Assembly (NCBI RefSeq): GCF_000255295.1
Contig: NC_017030.1
Location: forward strand, 4,216,001 to 4,280,000
DNA: 64,000 bases
Direction: 5' to 3'
From: Corallococcus coralloides DSM 2259
GTDB lineage: Bacteria > Myxococcota > Myxococcia > Myxococcales > Myxococcaceae
In this document: positions 40,032 through 44,930 of the stretch, in pieces
How positions within the stretch are numbered: the stretch's first letter is position 1
Layout of the letters: each line of letters starts with the position of its first letter
The notes under the pieces: model-generated
What the model saw: the letters and a program-made list of their open reading frames with translations, nothing else
The model's database searches: none
Told to the model about the DNA's origin: nothing
Position numbers and translations under genes: made by a program

Positions 40032-40126
40032 GGAAAGTGAACAGGGGTGTCCGCAACGGCTTGGATTGAGTGGCGTCTAGACCGCTGCTATGTCCAGCCT
40101 CACGCCTACGGCTAAAGGAGGCCGCA

Positions 40127-40450
40127 ATGGGAAATGCGGAGAAAACGCTGACTGGGCTTTACGCACTCTTGAAAGAGCAGAAGGTGCAGGAGGCAGTCGC
40201 CCTCTGTGCCACAGCATTCGGAGCAACTGAGGCCCAAGTGTGGGAGCTTGCAAAGCGGGTGAGCCTCGGCGGGCTCCATGACATCGCTCTCGCCATTGCG
40301 AGAACTCTTGATGCAAGTGACGAGGAGCGTCCCATGCAGGCGCTTGCGCTTTCGATGACAGGTCAGGCGGAATTCACGCTCGATCCCGATAACGCTAATC
40401 GGCCTATCGTGATCGAAGTGGCAAGGCGCCTCGCGAAACTCTCCCGGTAA
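40127..40450 (+). CDS. Small orphan gene inside the phage head block, opposite strand
   Basis: 107 residues, unknown family, soluble and helical (TLTGLYALLKEQKVQEAVAL, AKRVSLGGLHDIALAIARTL). An excellent AAAGGAGG lies 6 nt before the ATG. It reads against the surrounding capsid and connector genes and sits exactly between two of them. That is the position and style of a phage moron (an added gene with its own signals). Unlike its neighbours it has no frameshift, so it may still be expressed. Confidence 0.7.
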   Translation: MGNAEKTLTGLYALLKEQKVQEAVALCATAFGATEAQVWELAKRVSLGGLHDIALAIARTLDASDEERPMQALALSMTGQAEFTLDPDNANRPIVIEVARRLAKLSR

Positions 40451-40473
40451 TAGCTGCTGATCGGAGCTTTCGC

Positions 40474-40887
40474 TCAGACGGCCGGGATCTCGTCCGGGCC
40501 GCACAGAACGATCGTGCTGCTCGCGCCGATCGTCGGGGAGCTGCCGCCCGTGAGGCTCACCGTCTCGGCGACGCGCAGGTAGCGCTTCGCGGTGGGCAAC
40601 CGCACGTTGATGCGGGCAATCCCGTTCGCGGCGGTCAGCGGGTCGATCGCGGCGTCGGCGATGTCGGCCCATCCGGTCGCACCGTCGGCGCTTTCCTGGA
40701 GCTTCGCGGCGAGCGTCAGGGTCGTCGGAGCACCGGAAGCCGCGCCGGTCTGAGCCGCGAGCACGCACGAGTCGAAGCCGAGCCGGTCGACGGCGGCACT
40801 GTTGCGGGTGCCAGCTGCGACCGCGGCGGGCACGTTGCCCGAGCGGGGAGCGATGAGCACGCCCGCGTCGGTGGAATTGGCGTTCAC
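40474..40887 (-). CDS. Phage virion structural protein (small, next to capsid)
   Basis: 137 residues from a GTG with AAAGGA upstream. Ala/Thr/Ser-rich with beta-prone stretches (TTLTLAAKLQESADG, RINVRLPTAKRYLRV), no membrane segment. The order protease, capsid, this gene, connector is the normal order of HK97-type head genes, so a head decoration or completion role is likely. I cannot name the family. It appears uninterrupted, unlike the genes on both sides. Confidence 0.65.
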   Translation of the reverse strand: MNANSTDAGVLIAPRSGNVPAAVAAGTRNSAAVDRLGFDSCVLAAQTGAASGAPTTLTLAAKLQESADGATGWADIADAAIDPLTAANGIARINVRLPTAKRYLRVAETVSLTGGSSPTIGASSTIVLCGPDEIPAV

Positions 40888-40959
40888 TTGGGGAGTCCTT
40901 TCGGTTGGGGGAGCGGAGCCGGGGCACTGTGCGAGCTGCCCCGGCGTCACGCGGTCGGG

Positions 40960-42046
40960 TTAGTAGGTGATCGAGCTGAACGCCTTCGGCTGGCGCAGCC
41001 TGAAATCGCCCTTCACGATCGCGCGGATGGTCGTCTCGTCGTGCTCGGCGCGGGTGTCGTGCTCGGAGAGGAGCAGGTCCTCGTCGATCCCGTAGAGGAA
41101 TTGACGCCAGTCGCACGAGAACGTGATCCGCGACACGGGTACGCGCGTGGTCATCACGAACGGGAAGCCACGAATCGTCCCCTTGTCGAGCATCTCTCCA
41201 CGGAAGAGGAAGAGGCCAGACTCCTGGACCTGCATCAGCGCGGTTGCCCGCGTCGGGTGAATGACCCACGCCGCAGCCCCCATGCGGACGTGAGCGGTCA
41301 GCGGCAGCTCTACCGCCCTGTCGATGTCGGCGAGGTAGGCGGCAGCGGTCGTGCCTGTCGATGCGAACGAGTGCGCGGGGGTCGAGCTGCACGAAGAGCC
41401 CCTTCGGCGCGGCGCCTGTGCCGTCACCGTTGAACCCGGCATCGTCGAGACCATCGGCCACGGTGGCGCGGATGTCCTCTCCGACGCCCGCGTCTCCCAC
41501 GCCCGGCGTGCGCAGCAGGTCGTTGCTGATGTCCGTCAGCACCATGCCCTTGTGCGCCTTGAGCACGATCTTTCCGTACTTCGGCGCGCTCCTCGGGACG
41601 GTCTCCCCCTCGCCAACCCACTTGAAGACCGAAGTCCCCGTCTGCGTACCCATGTGCAGCTCGCCGCGAAACGCCTGGGTACGCACGCCGAGCTTGAGCA
41701 GGGCCGCGTCGGGCCGCAGGAACTCGATCACTTCGCCGCTCTGCTGGATGGGTACCAGCACGCCCGCCGAGTCGAACTTGCTGAGCTGAACCGCCTTCTG
41801 CACGTCGGCATTGCCGAAGCGCTTCGCGGCTTCGATCAGCTCGGTTGCACTCGTGCGGCGACCCAAGGAGATGACGCTCTTCGTGAACGCGCCGAAGTTT
41901 GCGACGCTCGCGTAGACGCTGCTCTCGCGCGTCGCCCTGTCTGTACCCATGCGGCCGGGGGCGCTTCGGGCCGCAGCGTTGACCAGCTCCCGCGCGACCT
42001 CAGGGCCAAGCGCCTTCACCATCTCAGTGACCTGCTCGCGAATCAT
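40960..42046 (-). pseudogene. HK97-type major capsid protein, frameshifted
   Basis: N-terminal segment MIREQVTEMVKALGP leads to a scaffold-like helix and the HK97 capsid body: GVLVPIQQSGEVIEFLRP, GTSVFKWVGEGETVP, VLTDISNDLLR, then NGDGTGAAPKGLF. One extra base in the G5 run at 41377-41381 throws the frame. In the other frame it resumes as ASTGTTAAAYLADIDRAV, WVIHPTRATALMQVQE, RGEMLDKGTIRGFPF and IVKGDFRLRQPKAF. The ATG overlaps the TGA of the protease gene (ATGA at 42043-42046). Confidence 0.85.
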
Positions 42047-42847
42047 TCCTTGTCACTCCCTTGAATGTACCGCTTGAACGCCTCGGCGAAGCGCTGCGCG
42101 GCTTCGGCAGCGTCGACCCCCTTCGCCTTGTCGCCTTCCTCGTCATCTGTCTTTGGCGCATCAATAGGCGTCGGCTTGCCCGTCTCGGGCTTGCTCTCGT
42201 TCGGGGCGCAGGCTCGTCGCCAGTATTTGGCTTTGCGCCCTGTTCGTCGCTCGCGTCAGGCTTGTCGTTCTCGTCGCTCTCTCTTCGACCAGCCCGACGA
42301 CACGCTTCGCGATACGCTCAACGAGGTCTTCACCTTCACCGTCGAGCGACTTATCGCGCAAAGCGCGAGCGTTCCCCGGGATCGTCACGATCGAAATTTC
42401 GAGTAACTCTTGGGCGTCGCAATCGAAGCCGCCGCGATCGTTCGCGCGATACTGGCCCGAAATCATCAGGTGACGGACTGAGACAGCGTTGAGGATGCCC
42501 TTCGCAACCTTGCGTGCGAAGTCGTCTTGATCGTCGAACTCGACGTCGATCATCAGCGCGTCGTTCTCGACGTAGACGCGCTCCTTGCCGATGGGAAGCG
42601 GCGGCTCAGCTCTCGTGAGTGCTGCCTGAGCGCCGTCGTCGTGATTGAAGAGAACGACGCCGTTCGCGTTGTATGCGTCAGTCCGCCAACCCTTGACGTT
42701 CATGCGGTCGGAGTAGCGATTGAAGTCGCCGTCGCTCGCCCTGAACGTGAAGACACGACGACCGCCCACTGATTCAACGGTGCTCAGGGCAGCCGCATCC
42801 TTGCGAACGGCGGCGAGCTGAAACGAGCGCGTAATCGGGAGGCGCAT
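42043..42847 (-). pseudogene. HK97-type prohead protease, tail frameshifted twice
   Basis: The protease core is intact: DRMNVKGWRTDAYNANGV, VVLFNHD with the catalytic-type His, ILNAVSVRH, and ELLEISIVTIPGNARAL. The charged tail is broken. After a change in the CT repeat at 42277-42284 it reads SDENDKPDASDEQGAKPNTG; after another at the G4 run 42203-42206 it reads NESKPETGKPTPIDAPK and ends AFKRYIQGSDKE plus stop, overlapping the capsid ATG. The ATG at 42847 follows GGGAGGT directly, a spacing shorter than ideal. No portal or terminase gene is visible upstream. Confidence 0.82.
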
Positions 42848-43127
42848 ACCTCCCGGTAAATGAGTGTGGTTTCTGCGCGTGGCTCAGTATGCCACGGAAG
42901 CGCACACCGCCATTCCGTGTATGTCTACAACATGAAAGCCAAGCAAAGACCGCAATGCCGCGTCCCAACACGATAGCAGCTGGAGATCCCAGAAAAACAG
43001 ACGTCCATTCTGTCCATCCGCTCTTGCCACCTCGCGGCCAGATTCTTAGGTTTGCCGGTACCACCGATTGGCCGGAAGCGGTGGGAGCCCTCGAGTCAGG
43101 CGCCCGAACAACCCGACTGGAGCCCCG
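42848..43127. other. Intergenic stretch between protease remnant and Cys-rich gene
   Basis: I see no convincing gene here. It is less GC-biased than the neighbours. A plus-strand reading (MPRPNTIAAGDPRKTD) is open but has no homology I can name. The portal or terminase expected upstream of the protease is missing, so this is probably where the prophage was cut. Confidence 0.4.
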
Positions 43128-43568
43128 ATGAGCACGTCCACGACCAAGTGGTACACGCCGTTCTTCAAGATTGCCGGAGGCTCGGCACTCCTGACTGGCC
43201 TCGCAGTGGGGGCGCTCTCCCTTCCAAGCGAGGCAACTCCGGCCTGCGGCAACGACTGGAACGAAGCGCCCTGCCTGACGCTGGCGGACGGCGACGTCAA
43301 GCGCGCCTATGACGGATGCAACAACGACGCATGCCGGGGGTGGGCTGACGGCGACTACCGCCGCCACCGTATTCAGCTCTGCCACGATGAGAAAAAGCTG
43401 GAGCAGGAAAAAATTAACGCCTGCTGGGCACGGCTCACCGCGATGAAGCCCAAGTACTCCAACACCTGCAACTGCGAGGATCCGACCGGCAGGGCCTACT
43501 CCTACGGTGCGAACTCCTGCACGGGATGCTGCGAAGGCACGACGTTCAAGGGCTGCTCGATTCACTAG
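43128..43568 (+). CDS. Secreted Cys-rich protein
   Basis: 146 residues; ATG with GGAG about 7 nt upstream. A signal-type hydrophobic segment (KIAGGSALLTGLAVGALSL) is followed by a mature part with twelve cysteines (ACGND, APCLT, DGCNNDAC, LCHDEK, NACWA, NTCNCED, NSCTGCC, KGCSI), so up to six disulfides. A Lys/Glu-rich helix lies between two Cys blocks. Function unknown; similar small Cys-rich secreted proteins occur elsewhere in this window. The TAG stop is the target of the IS5 element, which leaves the stop intact. Confidence 0.72.
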   Translation: MSTSTTKWYTPFFKIAGGSALLTGLAVGALSLPSEATPACGNDWNEAPCLTLADGDVKRAYDGCNNDACRGWADGDYRRHRIQLCHDEKKLEQEKINACWARLTAMKPKYSNTCNCEDPTGRAYSYGANSCTGCCEGTTFKGCSIH

Positions 43569-44445
43569 GGGCTGTCCCTGATCTCCGGCCCGAAAATTCA
43601 ACCTGCCGGATCGGAGACCCGGCTTGGACCCAGCTTCGGCCGCAGGAGGAGGTTGCCAGCCAGCGTCAGACATGATCAACGCTGGCTGTGCGCCGACATG
43701 AGCTGAGCGATGCCGAGTGGAGCCGCATCGAACCGCTGCTGGGTTCTCGCAGCGGCCCACCTTCGAAGCGTGGAGACCGCGACTTCATCAACGCGGTCAT
43801 CTGGCGCGTGAAGACGGGCGTGCAATGGCGTGACCTGCCCGAGCGGTTCGGCCACTGGAAGACGGTCTACAACCGCTTCCACCGCTGGGCGCAGGCCGGC
43901 AGATGGGAGGCCATCTTCAAGGCTCTGCGACTTGAAGTGGACGAGAAGGGCTCCCTCGCGGATGCCTCTGTCGTCCGAGCGCACCAGGATGCCTCGGGCG
44001 GAAAAGGGGGTCCGAAGAAATGCTCTGGGGCGTTCTCGAGGAGGTTTTCAACGAAAGTTCACGCCGTCACAACGACGAGCGGTAAGCCGCTCCACCTCGA
44101 GGTGACGCCCGGCCAGCAGCATGAGTCCACGATGGCCGAGGAACTCCTGGTGCACGCCGAGGGCAATGCCTTCATCGCGGACACCGGCTACGACGCCGAG
44201 CGCATTCGCGCCAATACGCTGAAGGTGGGGATGACGCCTGTCATTCATCCTCATCCCAGCAGAAAGCAACCGCCCGCGCTGGACCGCTCCCTGTATCGGC
44301 TGCGCTACCGGGTGGAGTGCTTCTTCCACGACCTCAAGCGCTTTCGGGCGGCCGCCACTCGCTACGACAAGACGGCGAAGAGCTACCTCGCCGTCCTGCA
44401 CGTTGCTTCTATGCTTCTCTGGCTGCGCTAATCAGGGACAGCCCC
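43568..44445 (+). mobile_element. IS5-family insertion sequence
   Basis: Perfect 15-bp terminal inverted repeats GGGGCTGTCCCTGAT (43568-43582) and its complement (44431-44445). The flanks are C-TA on the left and TA-G on the right, consistent with insertion into CTAG with a TA duplication, as in the IS427-type IS5 subgroup. It holds one transposase gene and looks complete. Confidence 0.88.
43688..44431 (+). CDS. IS5-family transposase
   Basis: 247 residues from a GTG start. N-terminal segment ELSDAEWSRIEPLLG and TGVQWRDLPERFG are typical of the IS427/IS1031-like branch. DDE residues fit SLADASVVRAHQ, IADTGYDAERIR and RYRVECFFHDLKRFRA. It is one uninterrupted frame, whereas many relatives are split in two and need frameshifting. 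Recently active by appearance. Confidence 0.92.
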   Translation: MRRHELSDAEWSRIEPLLGSRSGPPSKRGDRDFINAVIWRVKTGVQWRDLPERFGHWKTVYNRFHRWAQAGRWEAIFKALRLEVDEKGSLADASVVRAHQDASGGKGGPKKCSGAFSRRFSTKVHAVTTTSGKPLHLEVTPGQQHESTMAEELLVHAEGNAFIADTGYDAERIRANTLKVGMTPVIHPHPSRKQPPALDRSLYRLRYRVECFFHDLKRFRAAATRYDKTAKSYLAVLHVASMLLWLR

Positions 44446-44544
44446 TAGTCACGGCCCCTGACGCGCGATGACGTGACAGGCCTGGACAAGCAGGGAAGCA
44501 GGGGCTCATCCCGCTTCGCCTGCCTGGAGGCCAGGCCATCGGCG

Positions 44545-44781
44545 TCAGGGCTTCAGGGCGCGGAAGACCGCGTCCACGACCTCCTGCTCAGTGGGGAATG
44601 CCAGGCCGGTCTTCTTGATGACGACCTTCCCATCCACCGCCACTTCAAAAACTCCCGACCCGCCCTTCTTCAGCTCCGCATCCACTTCCAGCTCGTCCTT
44701 CAGCACGGCCGCCGCACGGGTGGCCCTGGGCAGGTAGCCTCAAGCAGTGCAGTAGGTGATGGAGACCTTCGCGTCGGCCAT
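44545..44781 (-). CDS. Rdx/SelW-like selenoprotein with CxxU motif (in-frame TGA)
   Basis: A 78-residue reading frame with one internal TGA at codon 14. It starts KVSITYCTA, then the TGA, then GYLPRATRAAAVLKDELEV, KKGGSGVFEVAVDGKVVI and TGLAFPTEQEVVDAVFRAL. That is the Rdx thioredoxin-like family (SelW/SelT/SelH): a CxxC or CxxU redox motif after the first strand, then the G-x-FEV-x-VDG strand pair and the FP turn. TGA stands at the second redox position, where the family has Cys or selenocysteine. AGGAGG lies 6 nt before the ATG. An 18-nt hairpin follows the TGA. The alternative is a Cys codon (TGC) mutated to TGA. It converges with the IS5 element and is transcribed divergently from the next gene. 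Confidence 0.75.
44722..44739 (-). promoter_or_regulatory. Candidate bacterial SECIS hairpin
   Basis: Directly after the TGA the message reads GGC-UA-CCU-GCCC-AGG-GCC: a six-pair stem with a UA bulge and a four-base loop starting with G. Bacterial SECIS elements lie just 3' of the Sec codon and carry a bulged U and a loop G. The stem is short, so this is tentative. Confidence 0.4.
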
Positions 44782-44930
44782 GGTGTTCCTCCTGACGGGA
44801 GATGGGACACCGCGCGAGGATGCGCGGCGCCTGCATCATCGTGACGCTCCGCCTCGCTCCGCGCCAGTCGCCTCCGGGACGGTCGAAGGCCTGCACCTCG
44901 GACAGACTGCGGCTGCTAGTGTTTCGGCGC

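Follow-up and report, generated by a model that had tools for sequence, protein, structure and literature searches.

A predicted SelW-like selenoprotein gene with an in-frame TGA in Corallococcus coralloides

Within the complete genome of Corallococcus coralloides (10,080,619 bases), a stretch of 64,000 nucleotides (positions 4216001-4280000, here referred to as the window) contains a short minus-strand frame of the Rdx family with a TGA at its fourteenth codon. The question raised by this locus is whether the TGA is read as selenocysteine (Sec) or is a lesion in an ordinary cysteine-type gene. SelW-like selenoproteins of Deltaproteobacteria were described in 2006 (PMC1794560), where Anaeromyxobacter appears with other selenoproteins. 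The family, with its CxxU motif, was the commonest selenoprotein family in an ocean survey (PMC2398784), and SelW-like proteins were later counted in 35 organisms (PMC5029168). The main texts of these three papers name no myxobacterial SelW-like member, nor was a myxobacterial distribution or a correlation with Cys or selA found in them, though their supplements may hold any of these. No literature treating selenocysteine and Corallococcus together was found. The family, the CxxU motif and the bSECIS type are already known and the mechanism is standard, and general knowledge of selenoproteins is unchanged by the result presented here. Possibly new are only the systematic myxobacterial distribution, the correlation of Sec, Cys and SelA, what looks like a leftover hairpin in a single Cys copy, and synteny on the scale of one gene in Corallococcus.

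The reading frame, its product and its fold

The features that define the gene are the following.

44545..44781, minus strand: predicted selenoprotein gene of the Rdx family, selW-like, with 78 codons when the inner TGA is read and the final TGA after them
44740..44742, minus strand: in-frame TGA, codon 14, at the Sec position of CxxU, from the sequence and its relatives
44788..44793, minus strand: Shine-Dalgarno AGGAGG, 6 nt 5' of the ATG, from the sequence, cAGGAGGaacaccATG

The frame starts with an ATG at 44781-44779 and closes with a TGA at 44547-44545, confirming from the sequence the 78-codon minus-strand frame with an AGGAGG site and a single TGA at codon 14 of which a preliminary description of this DNA had spoken. 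The product has 78 residues, MADAKVSITYCTAUGYLPRATRAAAVLKDELEVDAELKKGGSGVFEVAVDGKVVIKKTGLAFPTEQEVVDAVFRALKP, in which the inner TGA is the second redox residue of YCTAU and the remaining Rdx/SelW domain is intact. With U given as C, it scores 48.2 bits against Pfam Rdx PF10262 (cut-off 22.6), bearing out the earlier placement of the TGA at the second redox position of CxxU with the Rdx pattern beyond it, and 46.2 bits against TIGR02174 CXXU_selWTH (cut-off 34.2). The best NCBIfam match is NF041051 SelTWH_Campy at 68.1 bits, but this falls under the equivalog cut-off of 88 and the product is therefore left outside that equivalog. The frame is the sole Rdx match in the C. coralloides genome, and the nearest named relative of its protein is that of C. 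exercitus, with 99% identity over the protein.

An AlphaFold2 model of the product, computed with 56 relatives in the alignment and Sec modelled as Cys, reached a pLDDT of 82 and a pTM of 0.66, with secondary structure in the order E-H-E-E-E-H. Residues 11 and 14 are invariant among the 56 sequences, as C and C/U respectively. Foldseek comparison of the model returned bacterial SelW-family crystal structures with TM-scores of 0.72-0.80 and mouse SelW with 0.62, thioredoxins being weaker, and a profile search led to the same families. Mouse SelW (2npb) and the bacterial structures 3dex, 2fa8, 2obk, 2oka, 2ojl and 2p0g share the fold and family of the product, although identity in the structural alignments is just 24-39%. 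Both the profile scores and the CxxU motif, which ends strand 1 of the thioredoxin-like fold, place the product in the Rdx / SelT-SelW-SelH family. By analogy with this family, it is most likely a cytosolic thiol/selenol oxidoreductase that would cycle through a Cys-Sec bond.

The TGA codon and the selenocysteine machinery in Myxococcota

Rdx is present in 74 of 96 Myxococcaceae genomes, and in all 74, belonging to 19 genera, the gene holds exactly one TGA. Across Myxococcota the gene was found in 99 of 195 genomes, with TGA in 97 of the 99. When the DNA was re-read in the Rdx-bearing relatives, the TGA stood at the same codon throughout, and this conserved in-frame codon aligns with the Cys of homologues. 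The preliminary description had recognised that TGA confined to this strain, with TGC in all close relatives, would speak against Sec; the close relatives carry TGA. The SelW-like proteins of the three earlier papers (PMC1794560, PMC2398784, PMC5029168) have the same CxxU, Rdx-type domain and in-frame UGA followed by a bSECIS, also in Deltaproteobacteria; the difference from those papers is that the SelW-like form is here the common one in Myxococcaceae. Gene calling is corrected for a gene that most Myxococcaceae carry.

The codons 3' of the TGA are under purifying selection, which bears out the earlier view that a lesion-free downstream part favours Sec. In comparison with the five closest species, synonymous substitutions in this part number 8 to 12.5 and those that change an amino acid 0 to 6.5 (pN/pS of 0 to 0.19), and the median pN/pS over 115 pairs of 85-98% identity is 0.21. 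Such low values are not what a frame ending at codon 14 would give.

The distribution of the codon follows that of the machinery. In C. coralloides itself selA (E 1.5e-170), selB (1.1e-97, above cut-off), selD (7.3e-116, no inner stop) and the tRNA-Sec gene selC (70.5 bits, with the anticodon TCA according to ARAGORN) are all present, so that the absence of sel genes, which had been named as an observation that would tell against Sec, does not apply. The remaining RF01852 matches in this genome reach at most 47.6 bits and are probably cross-matches to other tRNAs, because genomes without selA also reach 47.6 bits. Among the TGA genomes of Myxococcota, selA is found in 94 of 97. Two that lack it (G106 and G009) are incomplete assemblies with tRNA-Sec at 72.7 and 68.1 bits. 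The third, G083, is a fragmented assembly of about 900 contigs (87% complete) in which tRNA-Sec as well as selA escaped detection. The only genomes with Rdx solely in a Cys form, G110 (TGT) and G151 (TGC), are without selA and have no match of the tRNA-Sec class (39.7 and 45.4 bits at most). The nearly closed genome G035 has neither Rdx, nor selA or selB over the cut-off, nor tRNA-Sec. This amounts to a natural experiment in one phylum, with TGA where selA and tRNA-Sec are present and Cys or no gene where they are absent. The gene is missing from 4 of 16 Corallococcus genomes and is hence dispensable.

Outside the window, at about 9.999 Mb of the C. coralloides genome (L143:430-4000; G000:C1:9998929 onwards), a formate dehydrogenase-like frame also contains one TGA, in the context ENQARIUHAST, which is the canonical FdhA Sec site (RI-U-HA). 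Judged from its sequence, this frame is likely a second selenoprotein gene. SelW is then probably not the sole selenoprotein of the genome, and the canonical site suggests that Sec decoding is probably in use in C. coralloides.

A hairpin downstream of the TGA

In contrast to SelW of eukaryotes, where the SECIS lies in the 3'UTR, the gene described here has a hairpin within the frame.

44707..44725, minus strand: bSECIS-type hairpin, arms 44725-44719 and 44713-44707, loop 44718-44714 (CGUGC), supported by compensatory changes, by shuffling of synonymous codons and by codon bias in the loop

The hairpin comprises nt 15-33 after the UGA, with nt 15-21 pairing with nt 27-33 (7+7 nt) around a 5-nt loop. 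That a hairpin exists, as had been described, is upheld by comparative evidence, but the conserved hairpin begins at nt 15 and not directly after the TGA as first stated. In the C. coralloides strain the middle pair is an A.C mismatch, and the folding energy of this single sequence is no better than that of shuffles (z -0.06); single-sequence folding was accordingly dropped as evidence.

The comparative test used 84 distinct TGA sequences, in which synonymous codons were swapped within column and amino acid so that every protein was kept. Standard pairs fill 94% of cells compared with 88% in the shuffles, all seven pairs form in 76% of sequences compared with 47%, and covariation is three times the shuffle mean, with none of 2000 shuffles reaching the observed values. 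In a thinned set of 35 sequences all seven pairs form in 63% compared with 24% and double changes number 30 compared with 12.6, again with 0/2000, although the exact shuffle figures are not to be read as probabilities since shuffling does not preserve relatedness. Sliding the partner arm by one to three columns destroys the signal. The covariance analysis envisaged in the preliminary description thus supports the hairpin on sequence comparison, its arms showing more compensatory change than the constraints of the protein explain.

The second base of the loop is G, and in some distant members the loop starts with GG. All 71 of 71 sequences use CGT or CGG for the Arg in the loop and none uses CGC, although CGC accounts for 41% of the Arg codons of five genes in the window. 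According to the bSECIS model as quoted in PMC13188914, the apical loop has 3-9 nt with G in position 1 or 2 and lies 16-37 nt from the UGA; the present hairpin agrees with the model so quoted, since its 5-nt loop lies 21 nt from the UGA and carries G at position 2.

Two Cys-type copies can be set beside these. The Cys-type Rdx gene of G151 (L051, 1501-1704; TGC) forms seven hairpin pairs, G.U counted, around a GGTCT loop, possibly a relic SECIS after a change from Sec to Cys, part of the hairpin being constrained by the protein sequence. In G045 (L091, 2998-3578) a TGA copy and a TGC copy of Rdx stand in tandem, and the TGC copy is without the hairpin (3 of 7 pairs).

Decoding of the TGA and the surroundings of the gene

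An insertion sequence adjoins the gene.

43564..44449, plus strand: IS4/IS5-type insertion sequence bounded by perfect terminal inverted repeats of 19 nt, with an apparently intact DDE transposase at 43688-44431

The presence of this element, together with other genes in the window that had earlier been described as broken, is what could be said in favour of a pseudogene, in which a recent TGC-to-TGA mutation would have struck an ordinary Cys-type Rdx gene. However, the TGA is common to all Rdx-bearing relatives in the 19 Myxococcaceae genera and beyond, selection acts on the codons after it, and no Cys orthologue was found within the genus, which makes this explanation extremely improbable. 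Damage by the element was itself ruled out, as its terminal repeat ends 95 bp past the stop codon and selW is uninterrupted. Sec UGA codons can serve as selenium-dependent stops, and the sequence taken alone is also compatible with a UGA that is decoded without selenium by a near-cognate or suppressor tRNA (as Trp or Cys) or that is mainly a regulated stop. This alternative is only slightly less improbable than the pseudogene: Cys alone replaces the TGA just in genomes that lack selA and tRNA-Sec, the hairpin shows compensatory changes as well as the loop features of a bSECIS, and the Sec tRNA and SelB are present in the genome.

The reading as Sec proposed in the preliminary description is supported by the sel genes and by the TGA shared among relatives, and 44781..44545 is considered, with a probability of about 0.96, a functional gene whose product is a SelW-like selenoprotein. 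From what is known of the family, the ribosome would arrive at the UGA of codon 14, where SelB with Sec-tRNA-Sec, bound to the hairpin (apical loop from 21 nt after the UGA), would insert selenocysteine. Translation would then run on to the second TGA, yielding the 78-residue product with its thioredoxin-like fold and a C-x-x-U site just ahead of the first helix.

In one Corallococcus group the match to the window spans only some 260-330 bp at selW (44529-44867 against L066, L067, L158, L160 and L162), at 91-95% identity and in differing neighbourhoods of closely related species; a second group has about 3 kb of common context around the gene. Homology between Corallococcus species starts at about the AGGAGG (44788..44793). 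Alignments of this kind suggest that selW may move from one neighbourhood to another, unrelated one as a unit no larger than the gene (about 270 bp, the ribosome site and stop included), or that the region may be hypervariable with selW as its constant part. In G021 and G017, which lack selW, a search beside the conserved kinase gene found no decayed copy. A flanking gene for a carboxypeptidase regulatory domain was useless as a synteny marker, other genomes having only paralogues of about 40% identity. A wider proposal for Myxococcota, that the Sec form is the rule, that genomes with Cys-only forms have lost the Sec machinery (in one case with a relic SECIS hairpin) and that the unit of about 270 bp moves within Corallococcus, is, taken jointly, rather doubtful.

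On the far side of the insertion sequence, an ORF at 43068-43568 ends within its left repeat, and the insertion may have truncated that gene. Further away, phage-like frames at 40112-42847 look frameshifted, with a capsid-like protein split between frames and a prohead-protease-like ORF, giving from the translations the impression of a possible decayed prophage.
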